64,000 nucleotides of DNA from Myxococcales bacterium 68-20 (lineage in GTDB: Bacteria > Myxococcota_A > Polyangia > Polyangiales > Polyangiaceae). The DNA is taken from the NCBI GenBank assembly GCA_001899635.1, contig MKVQ01000049.1, forward strand, positions 89,017-153,016, written 5' to 3'. The notes below the pieces were generated by a model, which saw only the letters and a list, made by a program, of their open reading frames with translations, was not told the origin of the DNA and ran no database searches. Every line of letters begins with the position of its first letter. Position 1 is the stretch's first letter. Made by a program: the position numbers and the translations under genes. Positions 4,394 to 15,546 of the stretch are shown piece by piece.

Positions 4394-6409
4394 TCAGAAG
4401 TGGCGAATGAAGTCGCCGGAGGCCGTTCCGTTCGGTGCCGGGGTTGCGCGGTTGCCCGCCGGCGAGGACGCCGGCGTAGCGTTGCCGGTCGGAGAGGTCG
4501 TCGCTGGAGCGCCCGCCGGCGTAGCGCCTGCCGTTGGAGCACCCTTTGCCGGAGCACCTGTTGCGGAAGCACTTGTTGCTGGAGCGCCCGCCGGCGTAGC
4601 GCCCGCCGTCTTCCCGGCGGCGCTCGGCTTGTGACCCGGCTTCGTCGCAGCGGCTTGCGCTGTCGTCGTCGCGGGCGCGAGCTCGCTCTCCGGCGGCATG
4701 GTCGGCTCTGCTGCCGACGCCGCCGTTGCGGGCGCGGTCGTGGTCGTGGTCGTGGTCGGTACGGCTACGGTCTCTGCCGTCGGCGGGGGCGCCGCGACGT
4801 GGTTCGCGGTGGTCATGGTGCTCGCGTTGCTGCTCGAGCCACGCACGACGACGACCGTCGCCGTGACGAGGCCGATCAGGACCAGCGCGCCGGCGAGCAC
4901 GAACAGACCGGTGCGCGATCGCGGGAGCGCACGGCGCGCGTCGGACGACTGGGACGAGAACGTGTCGCGCGCCGCCGGCGCTGGCACCTCGTCGAGCGTG
5001 ACGGCGGTCCCTGCATGCGCCTGGGCACGAGGGAGCACGCGCGGCGCCGTGCGGGCATCTTCGTCTTGCGGCGAGCTCGCGTGCCGGCCGGCCTTGATGA
5101 CGACCTGCCCCGGGCGCGGTGACATCTCGGCGTCCGGGTTCGACTCACGCTCGCGCTTCGACGGAGGCTTGCCACCCACTACGCCGAGGCCCGCGAGCAG
5201 CGCGTCGGCGTCGGGTGAGGTGTGCTCGCGCCCGCCGACGCCTCGCCACGTCGGGCCCGAGCGCACCGACTCGGGTGGTACGCCGATGAGCGGCACGTCG
5301 CCCAGGCGATCGGTCGCTGGCGACGCCGCGGCCATGTTCTTGCTCGGGGCTCGCGATGTCGAGGTGATCGTGCTCAGCACCTTCGAGAGCGGTCCGTTCC
5401 CTCCGACCTCGATCGGGCCGAGGCCCGCGCGGGCGGCGGCTGCGGCTCCGGCGATGGCAGCGCCGGCTGCGGCGGCGGCTCCGACTCCGCGCTGCGGGGG
5501 CGCATCGAGCGAGGGCCCTTCGGCGGTCAGGTCGTGCGGGTCTTTGCCGTCGCTCGCCCACTCGAGCTCGAAGAGGCGCTCGGCGAACGCATACGCGTCG
5601 TGCGGGCGAACGCGCGGATCCTTCGCGAGCGCCGACTGGATGAGCGTGACGATGGATGCCGGCACCCACGGCGCGAACTTCGAGACCGGCGCCGGGATCT
5701 CTTCGAGCTGCGCCTTCGAGACCCTCGTCCAGTCGTCGTAGTGGTCGAACGGACCGACGCCGGCGAGCATCTCGTAGAGGACGAGGCCGACGGCGTAGAG
5801 GTCGGAGGCGGGCGTCGGTTTGGCGCCGCGGATCTGCTCCGGCGACGCGTAGCTCCATGTGCCGACGAAGGCGCCGTCGTGTTTGCGATCGGCGACGGCG
5901 GAGACGCCGAAGTCGATCAGCTTCACCACCGGTTCGCCGTGGCGAGGGGCGTGGAGGAAGATGTTCTCCGGCTTGATGTCGCGATGGATGACCGGCACCT
6001 CGTTGGTGTGCGCGGCCTGGAGCGCCTCGAGGAGCTGGCGCGTGATCTCGTAGGCGACCCGCGGCGGGACGCGGCCCATCGTGTAGATGACGTCGCGTAC
6101 CGTGCGGCCGGTCAGGAGCTCCATCACGTAGAACGGCGAGCCGTCCGGGAGCGAGTCGTAGTCGAACACCTTGACGATGTTCGGGTGGTCGAGCTGCGCG
6201 AGGATCCGCACCTCGTCGAGGAAGCGCATCCTGTGCTCCTCGTGCTGCGTGAGCTCGGTGCTCATCAGCTTGAGGACGCCCTGGATGTTCGGCGGCTTGA
6301 CGACCTGATAGACGACGCCCATCCCGCCGGCGCCGAGCGGCTTCACCACCTGATACTTGGTGCCGGGGATGGTCGCGCCGACCTCGAGCTCGGGGCCTTT
6401 CGCAGACAT
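4394..6409 (-). CDS. Transmembrane Ser/Thr protein kinase
   Basis: This is a 671-residue Hanks-type kinase. The N-terminal kinase domain (about 18-280) has the glycine loop GAGGMGVVY (26-34), the catalytic loop HRDIKPENIF near 140 and DFGVSA near 164. A single transmembrane helix (GLFVLAGALVLIGLVTATVV) lies near 500-520. The remaining C-terminal part is an Ala/Pro/Thr/Gly low-complexity tail (repeats of the TPAGAPAT kind), presumably outside the cytoplasmic membrane, with no recognised sensor domain. The ATG at 6409 overlaps the TGA of the upstream amidohydrolase (TGATG), so the two are translationally coupled. A longer frame to 6436 exists but lies inside the upstream gene. Substrate unknown. 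Confidence 0.9.
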   Translation of the reverse strand: MSAKGPELEVGATIPGTKYQVVKPLGAGGMGVVYQVVKPPNIQGVLKLMSTELTQHEEHRMRFLDEVRILAQLDHPNIVKVFDYDSLPDGSPFYVMELLTGRTVRDVIYTMGRVPPRVAYEITRQLLEALQAAHTNEVPVIHRDIKPENIFLHAPRHGEPVVKLIDFGVSAVADRKHDGAFVGTWSYASPEQIRGAKPTPASDLYAVGLVLYEMLAGVGPFDHYDDWTRVSKAQLEEIPAPVSKFAPWVPASIVTLIQSALAKDPRVRPHDAYAFAERLFELEWASDGKDPHDLTAEGPSLDAPPQRGVGAAAAAGAAIAGAAAAARAGLGPIEVGGNGPLSKVLSTITSTSRAPSKNMAAASPATDRLGDVPLIGVPPESVRSGPTWRGVGGREHTSPDADALLAGLGVVGGKPPSKRERESNPDAEMSPRPGQVVIKAGRHASSPQDEDARTAPRVLPRAQAHAGTAVTLDEVPAPAARDTFSSQSSDARRALPRSRTGLFVLAGALVLIGLVTATVVVVRGSSSNASTMTTANHVAAPPPTAETVAVPTTTTTTTAPATAASAAEPTMPPESELAPATTTAQAAATKPGHKPSAAGKTAGATPAGAPATSASATGAPAKGAPTAGATPAGAPATTSPTGNATPASSPAGNRATPAPNGTASGDFIRHF

Positions 6410-7779
6410 CAGTAGTACCCCTGCATCCTCTCCCACAGCCGGCTCGCCGCGGGCCGCGCTCGGCCGATGAGCGCGCGCTCGTCGACGTTGACGAGCGCGC
6501 GGTCGCGAACGACGAACCGTCCCCCGACGATGGTGTGGCGCACGCTGGCCGTCGACCAGCCACGCACCAGGTGCTCGATCACGTTCGACTGGTTCATCGG
6601 CGTGAGCGGATTGTAATCGAGGATTGCGAGATCGGCGCGTGCTCCTGCTGCGATGCGTGGCGGAGCGGGATCGGCGAAGAGATGGCCCGCCATCACCTGG
6701 CCTGCCGCGATCCGGGCGCCGATCTCGCGGCCTAGGCCGTCCTTCGCCTCGTCGTGGCGGAAGCCGTAGGCGCGGGCCTCGGCGAGGATGTCACCGTCGA
6801 GCCCGTCCGTGCCGAGCACGACGTGGTCACCGGAGCCGCCGAAGAGGCCGACGCCGTGACGCATGTTCGAGCGCGGGTTGGTCGCGACGAAGGCACCCGC
6901 CCGCGCGAGCTGCTGCACGACGTCGGGCGTGAGCTCGTTCGCCTGCGCGATGACCGAGTCGGTGCGCGCGATGCCGAGCCGCTCGAGGCGCTGCTCGAGG
7001 CGTGTCCGCTTGTTGAGCTCGGCGTCCAGCGCGTCGGTCGCGTCCTCGGCGACGTGGAGGTGGAGGCCGACTCCGAACTCGTCGGCGATGGCGCGGAGCG
7101 CGTCGAGCGTGTCGTCGTTGAGGGAGAGCATCGCGTGCGCGCCGACGAGCGCGCGGTGCTGCGTCGTGCCCGCGCGCACCTTCTTCAGGAAGCGACGGTT
7201 CTCGCTGAGCGCGGCGTCGCGGCGCGCCCGTCCCTCGCGATCGCTCGTCTCGTACGCGAGCACGCCCCGGATGCCGACCTCGTCGAGCGCGGCCTCGATC
7301 CGATCGAGCGAGCCGTCGATCGCGCGCGGCGACGAGTGGAGGTCGACGACGCACGCGGCGCCAGCCTTCGCCGCCATCGCTGCGCCCGCCAGCGCGGACG
7401 CATGCACGAGGTCGTCGTCGAGTGCCTTGTCGAGCGGCCACCAGATCCACTGGAGGTGATCGGTCAGCGTCTGCGGCGTCGACGCAGGTGGAGGCATCCC
7501 GCACGTGAGCGCCATGTAGAGATGCGTGTGGCCGACGACGAAGGCGGGCGTGACGATGCAGTCGTGCACGTCGACGCGCGGGAGCCCGTCCGGGATCTTC
7601 CCGCCGACCTGGACGATCTGCGACCCGCGGATCACGACGTCCGCCTGTCCCATCCGCGTCGGATGAAGCTCGAGGAGCGTGCCGCCTGCGAGCACGATCG
7701 CCTGCTCGGTGATCCGCGCGACCTCGTCTGCGCCGACGGTGGGCGCAGCCGAGCGGAGCGTGCTCTCCGAGGGCAACAT
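6409..7779 (-). CDS. SsnA-like amidohydrolase (cytosine/guanine deaminase superfamily)
   Basis: This 456-residue protein has the layout of the SsnA/atrazine-chlorohydrolase branch of amidohydrolases, which typically deaminate purines, pyrimidines or related heterocycles in the cytoplasm. Visible metal-site residues are H84 and H86 (GHTHLYMAL), H240/H242 with E245 (GLHLHVAED) and D325 (LGTDGLDGD); NPRSNM (301-306) is the family's usual loop. The segment DLHSSPRAIDGSLDRIE is SsnA-like. The position where relatives carry a His before the NPRSNM strand reads IAQAN here (Q279), so a frequently conserved active-site His may be absent. It is divergent from allantoinase (128 bp between starts) beside a urate-degradation cluster, so a purine-related substrate is a reasonable inference. 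Specificity cannot be read from sequence. Confidence 0.8.
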   Translation of the reverse strand: MLPSESTLRSAAPTVGADEVARITEQAIVLAGGTLLELHPTRMGQADVVIRGSQIVQVGGKIPDGLPRVDVHDCIVTPAFVVGHTHLYMALTCGMPPPASTPQTLTDHLQWIWWPLDKALDDDLVHASALAGAAMAAKAGAACVVDLHSSPRAIDGSLDRIEAALDEVGIRGVLAYETSDREGRARRDAALSENRRFLKKVRAGTTQHRALVGAHAMLSLNDDTLDALRAIADEFGVGLHLHVAEDATDALDAELNKRTRLEQRLERLGIARTDSVIAQANELTPDVVQQLARAGAFVATNPRSNMRHGVGLFGGSGDHVVLGTDGLDGDILAEARAYGFRHDEAKDGLGREIGARIAAGQVMAGHLFADPAPPRIAAGARADLAILDYNPLTPMNQSNVIEHLVRGWSTASVRHTIVGGRFVVRDRALVNVDERALIGRARPAASRLWERMQGYY

Positions 7780-7907: not shown

Positions 7908-9278
7908 ATGAGCGTCGATCTCGTTGTCCGCGGCCAGCGTGTCTTCACTCCCGTCGGCGAGCGACCGGCCGCCGTTCATGTCGACCGCAAACGAGGCACG
8001 ATCGTTGCCGTCACCGAGCTCGAAGCGGCGCCGTCCGGCGTGGAGACGATCGACGCGGGCATGATGTGCGTCCTTCCCGGCCTCGTCGACACGCACGTCC
8101 ACATCAACGATCCCGGGCGTACCGACTGGGAGGGCTTCGAGACGGCGACGCGCGCGGCAGCCGCCGGTGGCGTGACGACGCTCGTGGACATGCCGCTCAA
8201 CAGCATTCCCCCGACGACGACGCTCGACGGGCTCGCGGCGAAGCTACGCGCGCTCGAGGCGAAGGCTCACGTCGACGTCGCGCTGTGCGGCGGGCTCGTG
8301 CCGTCGAACCCGGCCGGTCTCGCGGACCTCCATGCCGAGGGCGTGCTCGCGTTCAAATGTTTCCTCGCCGAGAGCGGCGTCGGCGAGTTCTCGTACGTCC
8401 ACGAGAACGAGCTCCGCGCCGGAATGAAGGAGCTAGCGCGCATCGACGCGCCGCTCTTCGTCCACGCCGAGCTGCCCGAGCCGCTCGCCGAAGGCGAGAA
8501 GGCGGCGATGGGGCTCGACCCGCGCCGCTACGCGACCTACCTCGCCTCGCGGCCGCGCCGCGCGGAGGACGCCGCGATCGAGCTCGTGCTCCGTCTCGCC
8601 CGTGAGACCGGCGCCCGCGCGCACGTGGTGCACCTGTCGTCGTCCGATGCGCTCGGCCTCTTCCGCCAGGCGCGCGACGAGAAGACCCGGCTCACGGTCG
8701 AGACCTGCCCGCATTACCTCACGTTTGCCGCCGAGGAGATCGAGGACGGCGCGACGGAGTACAAGTGCGCGCCGCCGATCCGTGAGCGCAACAACCGCGA
8801 GAAGCTGTGGGACGCGCTCCGCGAAGGCCTCGTCGATCAGGTCGTCACCGATCACTCTCCGTCCACTGCCGAGCTGAAGTGCTCCGGCTCCGGTGACTTC
8901 ATGAAGGCGTGGGGAGGTATCTCGTCATTGCAGCTCGGCCTCGCCGCCTTCTGGACCGAGGCGAGGGCACGCGGACGTTCGGTCCGCGATCTCGTCGAGT
9001 GGATGAGCGCCGCTCCCGCGCGTCTCGCCGGCATCCACGGCAAGAAGGGGGCGATCGCCGCCGGCTTCGATGCCGACCTCGTCATCTGGGATCCCGACGC
9101 CGACTTCACCGTCGACGCCTCGACGCTCCAGCACCGGAACAAGATCACGCCCTACCACGCGCGCAGCCTGAAGGGCGCGACGCTCCGGACCATCCTCCGG
9201 GGCGAGACGATCTACGAGCGCGATCGCGCCGGCGGCGCGTTCGCCGAGCGTCGCGGCCGCTGGCTCCGTCGGGCCTGA
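7908..9278 (+). CDS. allB: Allantoinase
   Basis: This 456-residue cyclic amidohydrolase opens the hydantoin ring of allantoin to give allantoate. The binuclear metal site is complete: H63 and H65 (DTHVHINDPG), carboxylated-Lys candidate K150 (AFKCFL), H186 (FVHAE), H242 (VVHLSSSD) and D315 (TDHSPS). Length and motifs are standard for AllB rather than dihydroorotase or hydantoinase. It lies upstream of allantoicase, OHCU decarboxylase, HIU hydrolase and urate oxidase on the same strand, so it should act between OHCU decarboxylase and allantoicase. The ATG at 7908 begins at the family's usual N-terminus. Confidence 0.93.
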   Translation: MSVDLVVRGQRVFTPVGERPAAVHVDRKRGTIVAVTELEAAPSGVETIDAGMMCVLPGLVDTHVHINDPGRTDWEGFETATRAAAAGGVTTLVDMPLNSIPPTTTLDGLAAKLRALEAKAHVDVALCGGLVPSNPAGLADLHAEGVLAFKCFLAESGVGEFSYVHENELRAGMKELARIDAPLFVHAELPEPLAEGEKAAMGLDPRRYATYLASRPRRAEDAAIELVLRLARETGARAHVVHLSSSDALGLFRQARDEKTRLTVETCPHYLTFAAEEIEDGATEYKCAPPIRERNNREKLWDALREGLVDQVVTDHSPSTAELKCSGSGDFMKAWGGISSLQLGLAAFWTEARARGRSVRDLVEWMSAAPARLAGIHGKKGAIAAGFDADLVIWDPDADFTVDASTLQHRNKITPYHARSLKGATLRTILRGETIYERDRAGGAFAERRGRWLRRA

Positions 9279-11143: not shown

Positions 11144-12703
11144 ATGGCGGACTTCAACGAGCTCATCGATCTCGCAGCGGAGCGCCTCGGCGGCTTCGTG
11201 CTCTGGGGAAGCGACGATTTCTTCGCCGAGAAGGAGAACCTCCTCAAGCCGGAGGAGGCGATCTTCATCGCCGGCAAATTCACCGACCGCGGCAAGTGGA
11301 TGGACGGCTGGGAGTCGCGGCGCAAGCGGCAGTACGCCGAGTCCTCCCGCGCTTACCCCGATCACGACACCTGCATCATCCGCCTCGGCCTCTCCGGCGT
11401 GGTGCGCGGCTTCGTCGTGGACACCGCGCACTTCAAGGGCAACTACCCGAAGGAGTGCTCGATCGAAGGCGCGAGCATCGAGGGCCACCCTGACGTCACG
11501 ACGCTCCTGTCGAGCGACGTGAAATGGACCGAGATTCTCCCGCGCACCGCCCTCGCGGGCGACACGAAGAACCGCTTCGAGGTCGAAGTCCCGCAGCGAT
11601 TCACCCATCTGCGCTTCCACATCTACCCGGACGGCGGCGTTGCACGGCTCCGCGTGCACGGCGACGTGATGCCGGGGGCGCGCTGGATGGGCCGGCGCGA
11701 CCGTCCTCAGCTCGTCGATCTCGCGGCGGCGGAGCACGGCGGTCTCGTCGTTTCGTGCAACGACATGTTCTTCGGCTCGCGCCACAACCTGATCATGCCC
11801 GGCCGCGGCGTGAACATGGGTGACGGTTGGGAGACGAAGCGCGGGCGCCGGCCGGGCCCCGACTGGGTCGTCGTCCGCCTCGCGACGGAGGGAGCGATCG
11901 AACGCGCAATCGTGGACACGCTGCACTTCCAGGGCAACGCACCCGACTTCTGCGCCATCGACGTCGCCTCGAGTCCGGACGCCGATCCCGACGGTTCGAG
12001 GGACGACGGCTGGCGACCGCTCCTCGCAAAGAAGAGCCTCCAGCCGCACACGGCGCACGTCTTCGAGGACGAGCTCCTCGCCGCAGGGGACGCGACCCAC
12101 GCGCGCGTTCGGATCTGGCCCGACGGCGGCGTGAGTCGGCTGCGCCTCTTCGGGATCGCGAGCGACGCGGGACGCGAGCGCTCCGGGATGCGCTACCTCC
12201 GCGCGATGCCGGAGCCCGAGCTCGAGAGCGCGCTCCGCTCATGCTGCGGGTCGAGCGCGTGGGTGCGTGCGATGGCCGACGAGCGAAGGAAGAACGCAGC
12301 CTCGTTCGCGAGCCTCGAGGCGCTCAAGAAGGTGGCCGCCGATCGTTGGAACGCGCTTGGTTCGAGCGACTGGGACGAGGCCTTCAAGGCGCATCCGCGC
12401 ATCGGCGAGAAGAAGGCGGACGGACCGCAGAGCAAGGTCGCTCATGGCTGGTCCACGAAGGAGCAGGCCAAGGTCTCCGAAGCGAGCCAGGCGGTACTCG
12501 AGGAGCTCCGCGCGACGAACAAGGCCTATGAGGAGCGCTTCGGCCGCATCTACATCGTCTGCGCGACGGGCAAGTCCGCCGAGGAGATGCTCGGCATCGC
12601 GAAGGAGCGGATGCAGAGCGCTGCCGAGACCGAAGTTCGCCGTGCCGCCGAGGAGCAACGCAAGATCACCGAGCTCCGGCTCGAGAAGCTGGTGATGGGA
12701 TGA
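11144..12703 (+). CDS. Allantoicase fused to OHCU decarboxylase
   Basis: A 519-residue bifunctional enzyme. Residues about 1-345 are allantoicase (allantoate to ureidoglycolate and urea), built of the family's two repeated beta-sandwich halves: one with GGFVLWGSDDFFAEKENLL and DGWESRRKR, the second with GGLVVSCNDMFFGSRHNLI and DGWETKRGR. Residues about 348-519 are OHCU decarboxylase (UraD), which turns 2-oxo-4-hydroxy-4-carboxy-5-ureidoimidazoline into S-allantoin. Visible UraD motifs are AHPRIGEKK near 416, GWSTKEQAKV and NKAYEERFGRIYIVCATGKS. The fusion joins two non-consecutive steps, since allantoinase acts between them. The TGA overlaps the uraH start by 4 bp (ATGA). Both halves look complete. 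Confidence 0.92.
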   Translation: MADFNELIDLAAERLGGFVLWGSDDFFAEKENLLKPEEAIFIAGKFTDRGKWMDGWESRRKRQYAESSRAYPDHDTCIIRLGLSGVVRGFVVDTAHFKGNYPKECSIEGASIEGHPDVTTLLSSDVKWTEILPRTALAGDTKNRFEVEVPQRFTHLRFHIYPDGGVARLRVHGDVMPGARWMGRRDRPQLVDLAAAEHGGLVVSCNDMFFGSRHNLIMPGRGVNMGDGWETKRGRRPGPDWVVVRLATEGAIERAIVDTLHFQGNAPDFCAIDVASSPDADPDGSRDDGWRPLLAKKSLQPHTAHVFEDELLAAGDATHARVRIWPDGGVSRLRLFGIASDAGRERSGMRYLRAMPEPELESALRSCCGSSAWVRAMADERRKNAASFASLEALKKVAADRWNALGSSDWDEAFKAHPRIGEKKADGPQSKVAHGWSTKEQAKVSEASQAVLEELRATNKAYEERFGRIYIVCATGKSAEEMLGIAKERMQSAAETEVRRAAEEQRKITELRLEKLVMG

Positions 12704-13038
12704 AATCCGTTTCCACCCACGTCCTCGACATCCACCGCGGCCGCCCCGCGGCGGGAGTGCCCGTCACCCTCGAGCGCAAGGACGGTGACGCGTTCACGCG
12801 CATCAAGGCCGCGGCGACCGACGCCGACGGCCGCGTGAAGGAGCTCGTCCCCGAAGGGCAGCTCACGAGCGGCACGTACCGCATCACGTTCGACACCGGC
12901 GCCTACTTCGCCGCGCAGAACGTCGAGGGCTTCTACCCGGAGGCGAGCATCGTGTTCGTCATCCGCGATGACGCCGCGCACTACCACGTGCCGCTCCTCT
13001 TGAGCGCGCACGGCTACTCGACCTACCGCGGCAGCTGA
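12700..13038 (+). CDS. uraH: 5-hydroxyisourate hydrolase
   Basis: A 112-residue transthyretin-like protein that hydrolyses 5-hydroxyisourate, the direct product of urate oxidation, to OHCU. It begins MKSVSTHVLDIHRGRPAAG with the N-terminal active-site His, contains HYHVPLLLSAHGYSTYRGS, and ends in the family's diagnostic YRGS C-terminus that separates true HIU hydrolases from transthyretin. No signal peptide, so cytoplasmic. Its start overlaps the stop of the allantoicase-OHCU decarboxylase gene (ATGA), whose second domain uses its product. Confidence 0.95.
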   Translation: MKSVSTHVLDIHRGRPAAGVPVTLERKDGDAFTRIKAAATDADGRVKELVPEGQLTSGTYRITFDTGAYFAAQNVEGFYPEASIVFVIRDDAAHYHVPLLLSAHGYSTYRGS

Positions 13039-13288: not shown

Positions 13289-13807
13289 TCAGTCGACGGT
13301 GTGGCAGCCCGCGCAGCCGAAGCCCTTGTGCGTGGCGGGATCGTACGGCTTCTCGTTGAGGGCCTCGGCCATCGCCGGCACGACCTTCTCGCCCATGAAC
13401 TTCATCATCTCGGGCTGCGCCTTCGCGAGCTTCTCGAAGCCGCCGTTCGAGAGCGTGAGCTTCGGGAGGACCTTGCGCGGGTCGTCCTTCTTCTGCGGGC
13501 CGTGGCAGGTAGCGCAGCCGAACTTCTCGAACTTCTTGCCGTCATGCTCCTTGAAGAGCTTCCCGACGTTCGGGACGACCTTCGCCGACATGACCTCGAT
13601 CTTCTTCTCCATCGGGAGGTCGTCGAAGCTCGGGCCTTCGTGCGCGGCGTGGGCGGTCTCTCCGCCGGTGCCGGCATCGCCGGTCTCGGTGTTCGCGTCG
13701 GCGGCCTCGGTCGGGGCCGACGGCGGGTTGGCCGCGGGCTGCGAGCCTCCGCAGGCGAGGAGGGAAGCGGTCGCGACGGCGAGGAAAACGAGAAGGTGGC
13801 TACGCAT
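13289..13807 (-). CDS. Two-haem cytochrome c lipoprotein
   Basis: A 172-residue lipoprotein: MRSHLLVFLAVATASLLACG has the lipobox LLAC, followed by a Pro/Ala/Thr-rich linker. Two CxxCH haem-binding motifs are present, GCATCHGPQ near residue 98 and GCAGCHTVD at the very C-terminus, with methionines between them (MMKFMGEKVVPAM) that could be axial ligands. The start at 13807 is chosen over a frame to 13876 because it begins the signal peptide. The gene is divergent from the PuuD-cupredoxin gene with 68 bp between starts. That urate oxidase lacks the usual cytochrome c domain, so this protein is a plausible electron acceptor for it or carrier downstream of it (inference). Confidence 0.85.
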   Translation of the reverse strand: MRSHLLVFLAVATASLLACGGSQPAANPPSAPTEAADANTETGDAGTGGETAHAAHEGPSFDDLPMEKKIEVMSAKVVPNVGKLFKEHDGKKFEKFGCATCHGPQKKDDPRKVLPKLTLSNGGFEKLAKAQPEMMKFMGEKVVPAMAEALNEKPYDPATHKGFGCAGCHTVD

Positions 13808-13875
13808 CTGTGCGGCGCCCGCTTTAATCCGCCCGCCGCCGGGATGCCAGTTTCCAGCTCCGGAAGAGCTGATCA
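13808..13875. promoter_or_regulatory. Divergent promoter region, cytochrome c / urate oxidase
   Basis: The 68-bp space between the two outward-facing starts must hold the upstream signals for both genes unless they are read from further away. The only site I can point to is GGAAG at 13862-13866, nine bases before the urate oxidase ATG. No clear -35/-10 pair or operator is visible. Confidence 0.35.
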
Positions 13876-15546
13876 ATGGACCTTACGCTCGAGCTGATTC
13901 ATATTCGGAGGCCGATGAGCCCGGCGTTCGTCACGGAGTGGTTGAATCTTTCCGTCCGCTGGATCCACGTCATTGCGGGGATCATGTGGATTGGCAGCTC
14001 GTTGTTCTTCAACTGGCTCGATGCACGCATCGAGAAGAACGAGCGCACCAAGGAGAAGGGCATCGAGGGCGAGCTCTGGATGGTGCACTCCGGCGGGTTC
14101 TACGACGTCGAGAAGACGCTCGTCGCGCCGAAGGTGATGCCCAAGCACCTCCACTGGTTCAAGTGGGAGGCGATGTTCACGATGCTGTCGGGCTGGCTCC
14201 TGCTCGACATCGTGTTCTTCCAGGGCGGCGCCGTCACGCTCGTCGATCCGAACGTCTCGGACATCTCGCCCGCTGCCGCGGTCGCGCTGTCGATCGGGAC
14301 GCTCATCGGATCGTGGTTCGTCTACGACATCCTCTGGCGCTCGCCGCTCACGAAGAGCGTGCCCGTCGGCGCGGCGATCACGTACGGCCTGATCGTCGGC
14401 GTCCTCTTCTTCCTGTCCCACAAGGTCAGCGGACGCGCCGCGTTCCTCCTCACGGGCGGAATGATGGGAACGTGGATGGCGACCAACGTCTGGGTGCACA
14501 TCATCCCGGCGCAGAAGGGGCTGGTGAAGGCGGTCACCGCGGGAAAGTCGCCGGATCCGAAGCTCGCGAAGCACGCCAAGACGCGCTCTCGGCACAACAA
14601 CTACATGACCTATCCGGTGGTGCTCATCATGCTGAGCAACCACTTCCCGGGCGTGTACGGCCACAAGCACGCGTGGCTCGTCCTCGCCGGTCTCATCCTC
14701 GTCGGCTCGGCGATCCGGCACCTGCAGAACGTGAAGAAGGAGCTCGCTCCGGGCGTGCTCATCGCCGTCCTCCTCGTGCTCCTCACGGTCGCGCACTCCT
14801 CGCTCACGTCTGCTCCGGCGAGCGCGGGCAGCGCGGGCGGCGACTCGAAGACCCCGCTCACGGCGACGACTCCCGAGACCAAGGGCGGTCCGGAGAAGGT
14901 CGCGAACGAGTCGGTCGTCGGCGTCGTGAAGGGCACGGTGAACCTCGTGGGCACGCCGCCGCCGAACAAGGAGCTCAACGTCGGAACCTGCACGAGCGAC
15001 GTGACGGGCCCGGTGATGTCCGATGCGGTCCTCGCGAAGGGGGGCAAGCTCCAGAACGCGTTCGTCTGGATCAAGGGCGGCCTCGACTCGTACAAGGCGC
15101 CGGCTGCGCCGAGCGAGCCTGTCGTGGTCGACCAGAAGGGGTGCATGTACAACCCTCATGTCGTCGGCGCGCGCGTCGGGCAGAAGGTCATCTTCCTCAA
15201 CAGCGACCCCGTGCTTCACAACGTGCGTGCCGTCGCGGAGACCAACGCGACGTTCAACGACATGATGCCGACGAAGGACATGCGCCTCGAGAAGGTCTTC
15301 GACAAGACCGAGGTTCCGGTGCGCGCGAAGTGTGACGTCCACCCGTGGATGAGCGCCTTCGTCGGTGTCGTCCCGCATCCGTTCTTCGCGGTGAGCGGCG
15401 TCGCGGGCGAGTTCTCGCTCGTGAACGTCCCCGAGGGCACCTACGAGATCGAGGCCTGGCACGAGGTCTTCGGGCGACAGACGCAGAAGATCGAGGTCAA
15501 GGCGCGCGAGACCGCCGAGCTCGCGCTGACGTTCCGCGCGGAATAG
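13876..15546 (+). CDS. puuD: PuuD-type membrane urate oxidase with C-terminal cupredoxin domain
   Basis: This 556-residue protein has two parts. Residues 1-305 are the membrane urate oxidase domain (DUF989/PuuD): about eight hydrophobic segments and the family's opening NLSVRWIHVIAGIMWIGSS, HSGGFYDVEK and LHWFKWEAMFTMLSGW. PuuD oxidises urate to 5-hydroxyisourate and normally passes electrons to a C-terminal cytochrome c domain. Here no CxxCH exists. After a linker (306-345), residues 346-556 form a cupredoxin-like domain with candidate type-1 copper ligands H448 (VLHNVRA), C486, H489 and M492 (CDVHPWM), then a beta-sandwich tail (VPEGTYEIEAWHEVFGRQTQ). Copper thus appears to replace haem as the built-in acceptor. 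The divergent gene encodes a separate two-haem cytochrome c. Start ATG 13876 has GGAAG nine bases upstream. Confidence 0.85.
   Translation: MDLTLELIHIRRPMSPAFVTEWLNLSVRWIHVIAGIMWIGSSLFFNWLDARIEKNERTKEKGIEGELWMVHSGGFYDVEKTLVAPKVMPKHLHWFKWEAMFTMLSGWLLLDIVFFQGGAVTLVDPNVSDISPAAAVALSIGTLIGSWFVYDILWRSPLTKSVPVGAAITYGLIVGVLFFLSHKVSGRAAFLLTGGMMGTWMATNVWVHIIPAQKGLVKAVTAGKSPDPKLAKHAKTRSRHNNYMTYPVVLIMLSNHFPGVYGHKHAWLVLAGLILVGSAIRHLQNVKKELAPGVLIAVLLVLLTVAHSSLTSAPASAGSAGGDSKTPLTATTPETKGGPEKVANESVVGVVKGTVNLVGTPPPNKELNVGTCTSDVTGPVMSDAVLAKGGKLQNAFVWIKGGLDSYKAPAAPSEPVVVDQKGCMYNPHVVGARVGQKVIFLNSDPVLHNVRAVAETNATFNDMMPTKDMRLEKVFDKTEVPVRAKCDVHPWMSAFVGVVPHPFFAVSGVAGEFSLVNVPEGTYEIEAWHEVFGRQTQKIEVKARETAELALTFRAE

Follow-up and report, generated by a model that had tools for sequence, protein, structure and literature searches.

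Apparent replacement of the tethered cytochrome c of PuuD-type urate oxidases by a cupredoxin-like domain, with a divergent two-CxxCH lipoprotein as a local neighbour in one genus

PuuD is a membrane cytochrome c urate oxidase described by Doniselli et al. in 2015 for Atu2314 of Agrobacterium fabrum (PMC4562309). That paper reports the CxxCH motif and the distal Met of the C-terminal cytochrome c domain as invariant in all PuuD sequences, and gives this domain a central place in its proposal that urate oxidation is linked to respiration. We adopt the published topology, in which the C-terminal domain lies outside. The oxidase encoded in the window, the stretch of 64,000 nucleotides from Myxococcales bacterium 68-20 that we analyzed, has in common with PuuD as described there a full-length DUF989/Urate_ox_N domain, eight predicted helices, a C-terminal redox domain, and linkage to the genes for hydroxyisourate hydrolase and OHCU decarboxylase (Table 1). 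It differs in that it has lost the CxxCH motif and the distal Met and carries in their place a cupredoxin whose ligands are H, C, H, and M, and we therefore regard it as a variant of PuuD and not as a 'cytochrome c urate oxidase'. Tethered redox domains of both kinds occur in three-domain copper nitrite reductases, which carry a tethered cytochrome c in some cases and an additional type-1 copper in others (PMC6278305, PMC6400189, and PMC13324648). The copper and cytochrome variants of PuuD would work like the tethered domains of these enzymes, but the catalytic domain and reaction of the reductases are unrelated to PuuD, and no membership of that family is claimed.

An earlier note on this locus had taken a divergent lipoprotein with 2 CxxCH motifs for the external partner of a copper urate oxidase that has lost its own cytochrome domain. 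Such a lipoprotein is indeed encoded beside the PuuD-type gene, with the haem motifs CATCH and CAGCH and a lipobox-like LLAC. The allantoinase, the fused allantoicase-OHCU decarboxylase, and the hydroxyisourate hydrolase encoded upstream of puuD identify the surroundings as a urate pathway cluster, and among the matches listed at least 1 urate-pathway gene was present in the flanks read of 23 of the 26 copper fusions. Beside these purine genes in the window lies a gene for an SsnA-like amidohydrolase (6409-7779, minus strand; best match PRK07203, below cut-off), which is kept near purine genes in G347, G408, and G410.

Table 1. Positions of the genes, domains, and motifs of the locus, counted from the first nucleotide of the window.
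Feature	Position	Strand	Basis
Allantoinase AllB	7908..9278	+	TIGR03178
Allantoicase fused to OHCU decarboxylase	11144..12703	+	Domain matches
5-Hydroxyisourate hydrolase, next pathway step	12700..13038	+	TIGR02962
Two-CxxCH cytochrome-c-like lipoprotein, 172 aa	13289..13807	-	ORF translation and family alignment
Haem motif 2, CAGCH, residues 165-169	13301..13315	-	Present in 65/65 family rows
Haem motif 1, CATCH, residues 98-102	13502..13516	-	Present in 65/65 family rows
Lipobox-like LLAC ending at Cys19	13751..13762	-	Lipobox pattern in 46/65 family rows
Divergent intergenic gap, 68 bp; 107 bp (to 13914) if PuuD begins at ATG 13915	13808..13875	.	Sequence
PuuD-type membrane urate oxidase with C-terminal cupredoxin, 556 aa	13876..15546, start possibly 13915	+	Urate_ox_N match, alignment
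Eight-helix membrane domain (Urate_ox_N/DUF989), residues about 16-310	13921..14805	+	Pfam match, AlphaFold2 model
Cupredoxin domain, residues 414-499; putative Cu ligands H448, C486, H489, M492	15115..15372	+	Alignment, fold comparison
Transthyretin-like (CarboxypepD_reg-like) module, residues 504-556, plus strand 348-358	15385..15543	+	Domain match, AlphaFold2 model, fold comparison

The N-terminal part of the oxidase matched Urate_ox_N (PF06181) over model positions 2-288 of 295 (E 8.6e-105), and the AlphaFold2 model of the protein (mean pLDDT 82) showed 8 long helices. The membrane domain gave no sequence match among solved structures, and its fold was barely probed by the fold search, the list of which was filled by C-terminal domains. 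No CxxCH occurs anywhere in the open reading frame (13876-15546), and the C-terminal domain is cupredoxin-like. Both the loss of the cytochrome domain and the word 'copper' in the earlier note therefore hold as statements about the sequence.

The predicted fold of the C-terminal domain is that of a type-1 cupredoxin and resembles amicyanin and plastocyanin. Plastocyanin 7pcy superposed on residues 415-499 of the model with a Z score of 12.0 and an rmsd of 1.6 over 84 aligned residues; amicyanin, with a Z score of about 11.5, was tied with the plastocyanins, and its sequence match to the domain was weak (E 0.46-0.94). The spacing CxxHxxM is that of the amicyanin ligands. Unlike amicyanin and plastocyanin, the cupredoxin of the window is tethered to a membrane oxidase and lies within a transthyretin-like module: the part of carboxypeptidase D (1qmu) that matched strand 348-358 together with residues 504-556 (Z 11.9, rmsd 1.9, 78 residues) is presumably its transthyretin-like domain, so that the cupredoxin seems to be inserted in this module. 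The type-1 ligand set of a putative copper site consists of two His, one Cys, and an axial Met, and these 4 residues were invariant in all 17 aligned Myxococcota fusions. Each of the 9 fusions listed from named organisms, and each of the 3 separate neighbouring cupredoxins, likewise has the signature HN...CxxHxxM. From this conservation we infer that the C-terminal domain binds copper. Since 4 invariant ligands are no proof of copper occupancy and the domain sits within a transthyretin-like module, it could also be a cupredoxin fold with a structural, copper-sensing, or other non-redox role. We consider this very improbable, because the ligand signature is kept in the 26 fusions among the matches listed and in the 3 separate neighbours, and because the exchange with the cytochrome domain is one for one. 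Among the papers listed in a search of open-licence PMC papers, none dealt with a cupredoxin PuuD, and no biochemistry of the copper type was found.

The replacement was followed through 377 Myxococcota genomes, in which 101 loci with a long PuuD match were read, including that of the window (2 fragments from G188 were left out). A fused cytochrome was present at 83 of these loci and a fused cupredoxin at 10; 4 loci encoded a complete PuuD with no C-terminal domain, and another 4, which we left out of the cupredoxin comparison, had fragmentary or interrupted frames. A cupredoxin open reading frame was found at 10 of 10 cupredoxin-fused loci, at 3 of the 4 loci without a C-terminal domain, and at none of the 83 cytochrome-fused loci. 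A cupredoxin therefore accompanied 13 of 14 complete cytochrome-less PuuDs versus 0 of 83 cytochrome-fused ones (Fisher p 3e-15, a value that overstates the contrast because loci within one phylum are related and do not amount to 97 independent trials). The 3 split loci, L153 (G373), L158 (G120), and L159 (G136), encode a PuuD with no C-terminal domain next to a separate cupredoxin gene, the product of which is homologous to the fused domain of the window. At L157, which lies near a contig start, a complete PuuD was found with no cupredoxin or fused redox domain in the sequence read, and the complete PuuD of L322 (an Acidobacteria MAG) similarly had neither a cytochrome nor a cupredoxin domain in the sequence read.

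Altogether, at least 26 copper PuuD fusions were counted: 17 from Myxococcota and at least 9 from named records elsewhere, namely 7 from Bdellovibrionota, one from a Lysobacteraceae MAG, and one from an Acidobacteriota MAG. On a tree built from 144 PuuD membrane domains, the copper label required about 7 changes, 3 of them forced by well-supported branches. An AU test performed on 71 selected rows with a simpler model did not reject a single origin of the cytochrome-less forms (p-AU 0.38). These results support the view that the tethered cytochrome c of PuuD has been replaced by an amicyanin-like cupredoxin and that this swap recurs widely.

We think it likely that the copper-type PuuD passes electrons from urate to its tethered copper and then to a general acceptor, and that the neighbouring cytochrome is a lineage-specific arrival that the oxidase does not require. 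For the copper type, we infer the oxidation of urate, the direction in which electrons move, and the acceptor that receives them as follows. The eight-helix membrane domain would oxidise urate and deliver the electrons to the tethered, externally facing type-1 copper (H448, C486, H489, and M492), which would act in place of the tethered cytochrome c. From the copper they would pass to any carrier in the periplasm, or any cytochrome c oxidase, that the cell possesses; with 2 COX2 matches in the genome of the window, a terminal oxidase is available. The divergent cytochrome, which would have arrived between puuD and the gene for hydroxyisourate hydrolase, may be one acceptor in 3 species.

This neighbouring protein has CxxCH in an exported polypeptide, as generally expected of c-type cytochromes, and haem attachment is predicted. 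No Pfam or NCBIfam model scored above its cut-off for the 172 residues (13.5 bits for PF00034, cut-off 21.3; 13.4 bits for PF13442, cut-off 27). CxxCH haem motifs and export are thus what it has in common with the class I c-type cytochromes of these 2 models; unlike them, it falls below both cut-offs, is internally duplicated, and carries an invariant Met upstream of each CxxCH. In an alignment of 65 family rows (64 distinct), both CxxCH motifs were present in every row and are therefore not chance occurrences, and M73 and M138 were also invariant. The 2 halves of the protein are an internal duplication (HHalign E 7.5e-14), and each repeat has its Met 25-27 residues before its CxxCH, which suggests 2 haems with predicted His/Met ligands. 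The family comprises Myxococcota lipoproteins with two repeats and 2 haems, the latter probably His/Met-ligated. A single-sequence AlphaFold2 model was poor (pLDDT 45.7) and was set aside, and none of the papers listed in a search of open-licence PMC papers described this cytochrome family.

We then compared the occurrence of the 2 genes. In the genus of the window, copper PuuD was found in 8 of 12 genomes (G000, which contains the window, G347, G408, G409, G410, G411, G413, and G414), and a profile search that scored nearly all candidates detected the cytochrome in 7 of 12. The 3 genomes that have both, G000, G347, and G410, all have them adjacent. In the other 5 copper-PuuD genomes no cytochrome homologue was found, with every candidate scored and genome completeness of 88 to 99%; one of these is G409, the PuuD of which is 89% identical. 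Four genomes of the genus have the cytochrome without copper PuuD: G036, G089, and G415 (72% complete) gave no PuuD match at all, and G412 (loci L259, L261, and L262) has a cytochrome-type PuuD, which the tree places at a distance from the copper clade, and unlinked two-haem cytochrome copies. We rejected an obligatory partner cytochrome as a general rule, since 5 of the 8 copper-PuuD genomes of the genus yielded no such cytochrome and elsewhere it is unlinked. Conservation of the gene pair, proposed in the earlier note as a check of the partnership, was not borne out either: among the matches listed, a homologue adjoins 3 of 26 copper PuuDs, all 3 in the genus of the window, and motif scans and homologue searches found no adjacent homologue at the 23 other copper loci (the scans for CxxCH neighbours excluded Pro within the motif, a limit that does not apply to the homologue searches).

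Beyond the genus, homologues of the cytochrome were found in at least 84 of the 377 Myxococcota genomes, with up to 9 candidates scored in each. Of the 84 in which we found one, 34 have a long PuuD match and 50 lack a full-length PuuD, so that the cytochrome is widespread without PuuD, an outcome that the earlier note had named as contrary to its proposal. Across the phylum the presence of cytochrome and PuuD was weakly positively associated (odds ratio 2.25, p 0.003, ignoring ancestry). Within the taxonomic family the cytochrome was, if anything, rarer alongside copper PuuD (4 of 12 genomes versus 60 of 96 others, p 0.066). No neighbour recurred beyond a few genomes around 40 loci of the cytochrome family in an all-against-all BLASTP comparison with antisense frames set aside; this comparison is coarse, because stop-to-stop open reading frames in GC-rich DNA include spurious ones.

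Gene order within the genus bears on the same point. In G408, G413, and G414 the gene for hydroxyisourate hydrolase directly adjoins puuD on one strand, with a short gap at most and no cytochrome, and in the window and G347 the cytochrome lies between them on the opposite strand. G410 retains the cytochrome-puuD pair, with the purine genes on its far side and in the opposite orientation. G409 has the gene order of G410 with the cytochrome missing, and the 1.8 kb upstream of its puuD are unrelated to the window, G410, and G347. These arrangements fit an arrival of the cytochrome in one subclade followed by a later loss, and they show that the pair has persisted to some extent. The divergent gap measures 68 bp from ATG 13876, as the earlier note had it; ATG 13915 (MSPAF...) is conserved in all 3 pair-bearing genomes and the upstream ATG is missing in G347, so the spacing may instead be 107 bp. 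An intergenic scan found no sigma-70-like promoter between cytochrome and puuD.

The divergent cytochrome could be the dedicated electron acceptor of copper PuuD in these genomes, co-regulated with it from the shared intergenic region. The divergent adjacency in 3 genomes, the grouping of the 3 pair-member cytochromes in their tree (SH-aLRT 96), the invariant Met residues, which would allow His/Met haems suited to an acceptor, and the weak phylum-wide association all favour such a role, and the retention of the pair in G410 despite the reoriented purine genes is mild evidence of a functional link. We nevertheless judge it unlikely, given the copper-PuuD genomes of the genus that lack the cytochrome, the genomes that have it with no PuuD match, the 23 copper loci with no adjacent homologue, the lower frequency within the family, and the gap with no promoter-like site. 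We give about an even chance to the cytochrome being a general redox or haem lipoprotein of the envelope that landed beside puuD and has no part in urate oxidation, as its spread through Myxococcota, its variable neighbours, and its frequent occurrence apart from full-length PuuD would suggest; the adjacency that outlived rearrangement in G410 argues against it. That reading touches on nothing but the cytochrome and does not conflict with a copper-type PuuD. The weight left over from these 2 readings goes to another or a partial role. The neighbouring cytochrome thus looks like a lineage-specific local neighbour and not a conserved or required partner, with a local role, for example as one acceptor in the 3 species, being possible. 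From the interpretation in the earlier note, the replacement of the fused cytochrome c by a copper-type domain stands as a real finding, and the claim that the divergent cytochrome is the partner of the copper oxidase is weakened.

More tentatively, and with rather less than even confidence, we propose that a PuuD lineage spread over several phyla exchanged its haem acceptor for type-1 copper and in this way freed the oxidase itself from cytochrome c maturation, that the copper may feed a terminal oxidase or another copper protein directly, and that one genus began to recruit a previously undescribed two-repeat His/Met two-haem lipoprotein. The swap, with both PuuD versions present in one phylum, offers a clean test of whether PuuD hands electrons to an external redox centre: if it does, urate is expected to reduce the copper, and the oxidase itself is expected to be independent of cytochrome c maturation. 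The swap also corrects the name 'cytochrome c urate oxidase' as applied to a number of myxobacteria, Bdellovibrio-like organisms, and other bacteria, and adjacency alone is no basis for annotating the neighbouring cytochrome as a partner.

The PuuD survey yielded further observations. The cytochrome-type PuuDs of L073, L120, L126, L127, and L128 contain 2 CxxCH motifs about 104-109 residues apart, possibly as a two-haem C-terminal extension. Short partial Urate_ox_N matches (about positions 170-260) occur in many Myxococcota genomes and may correspond to the DUF989 proteins with four helices and unknown function that PMC4562309 describes.
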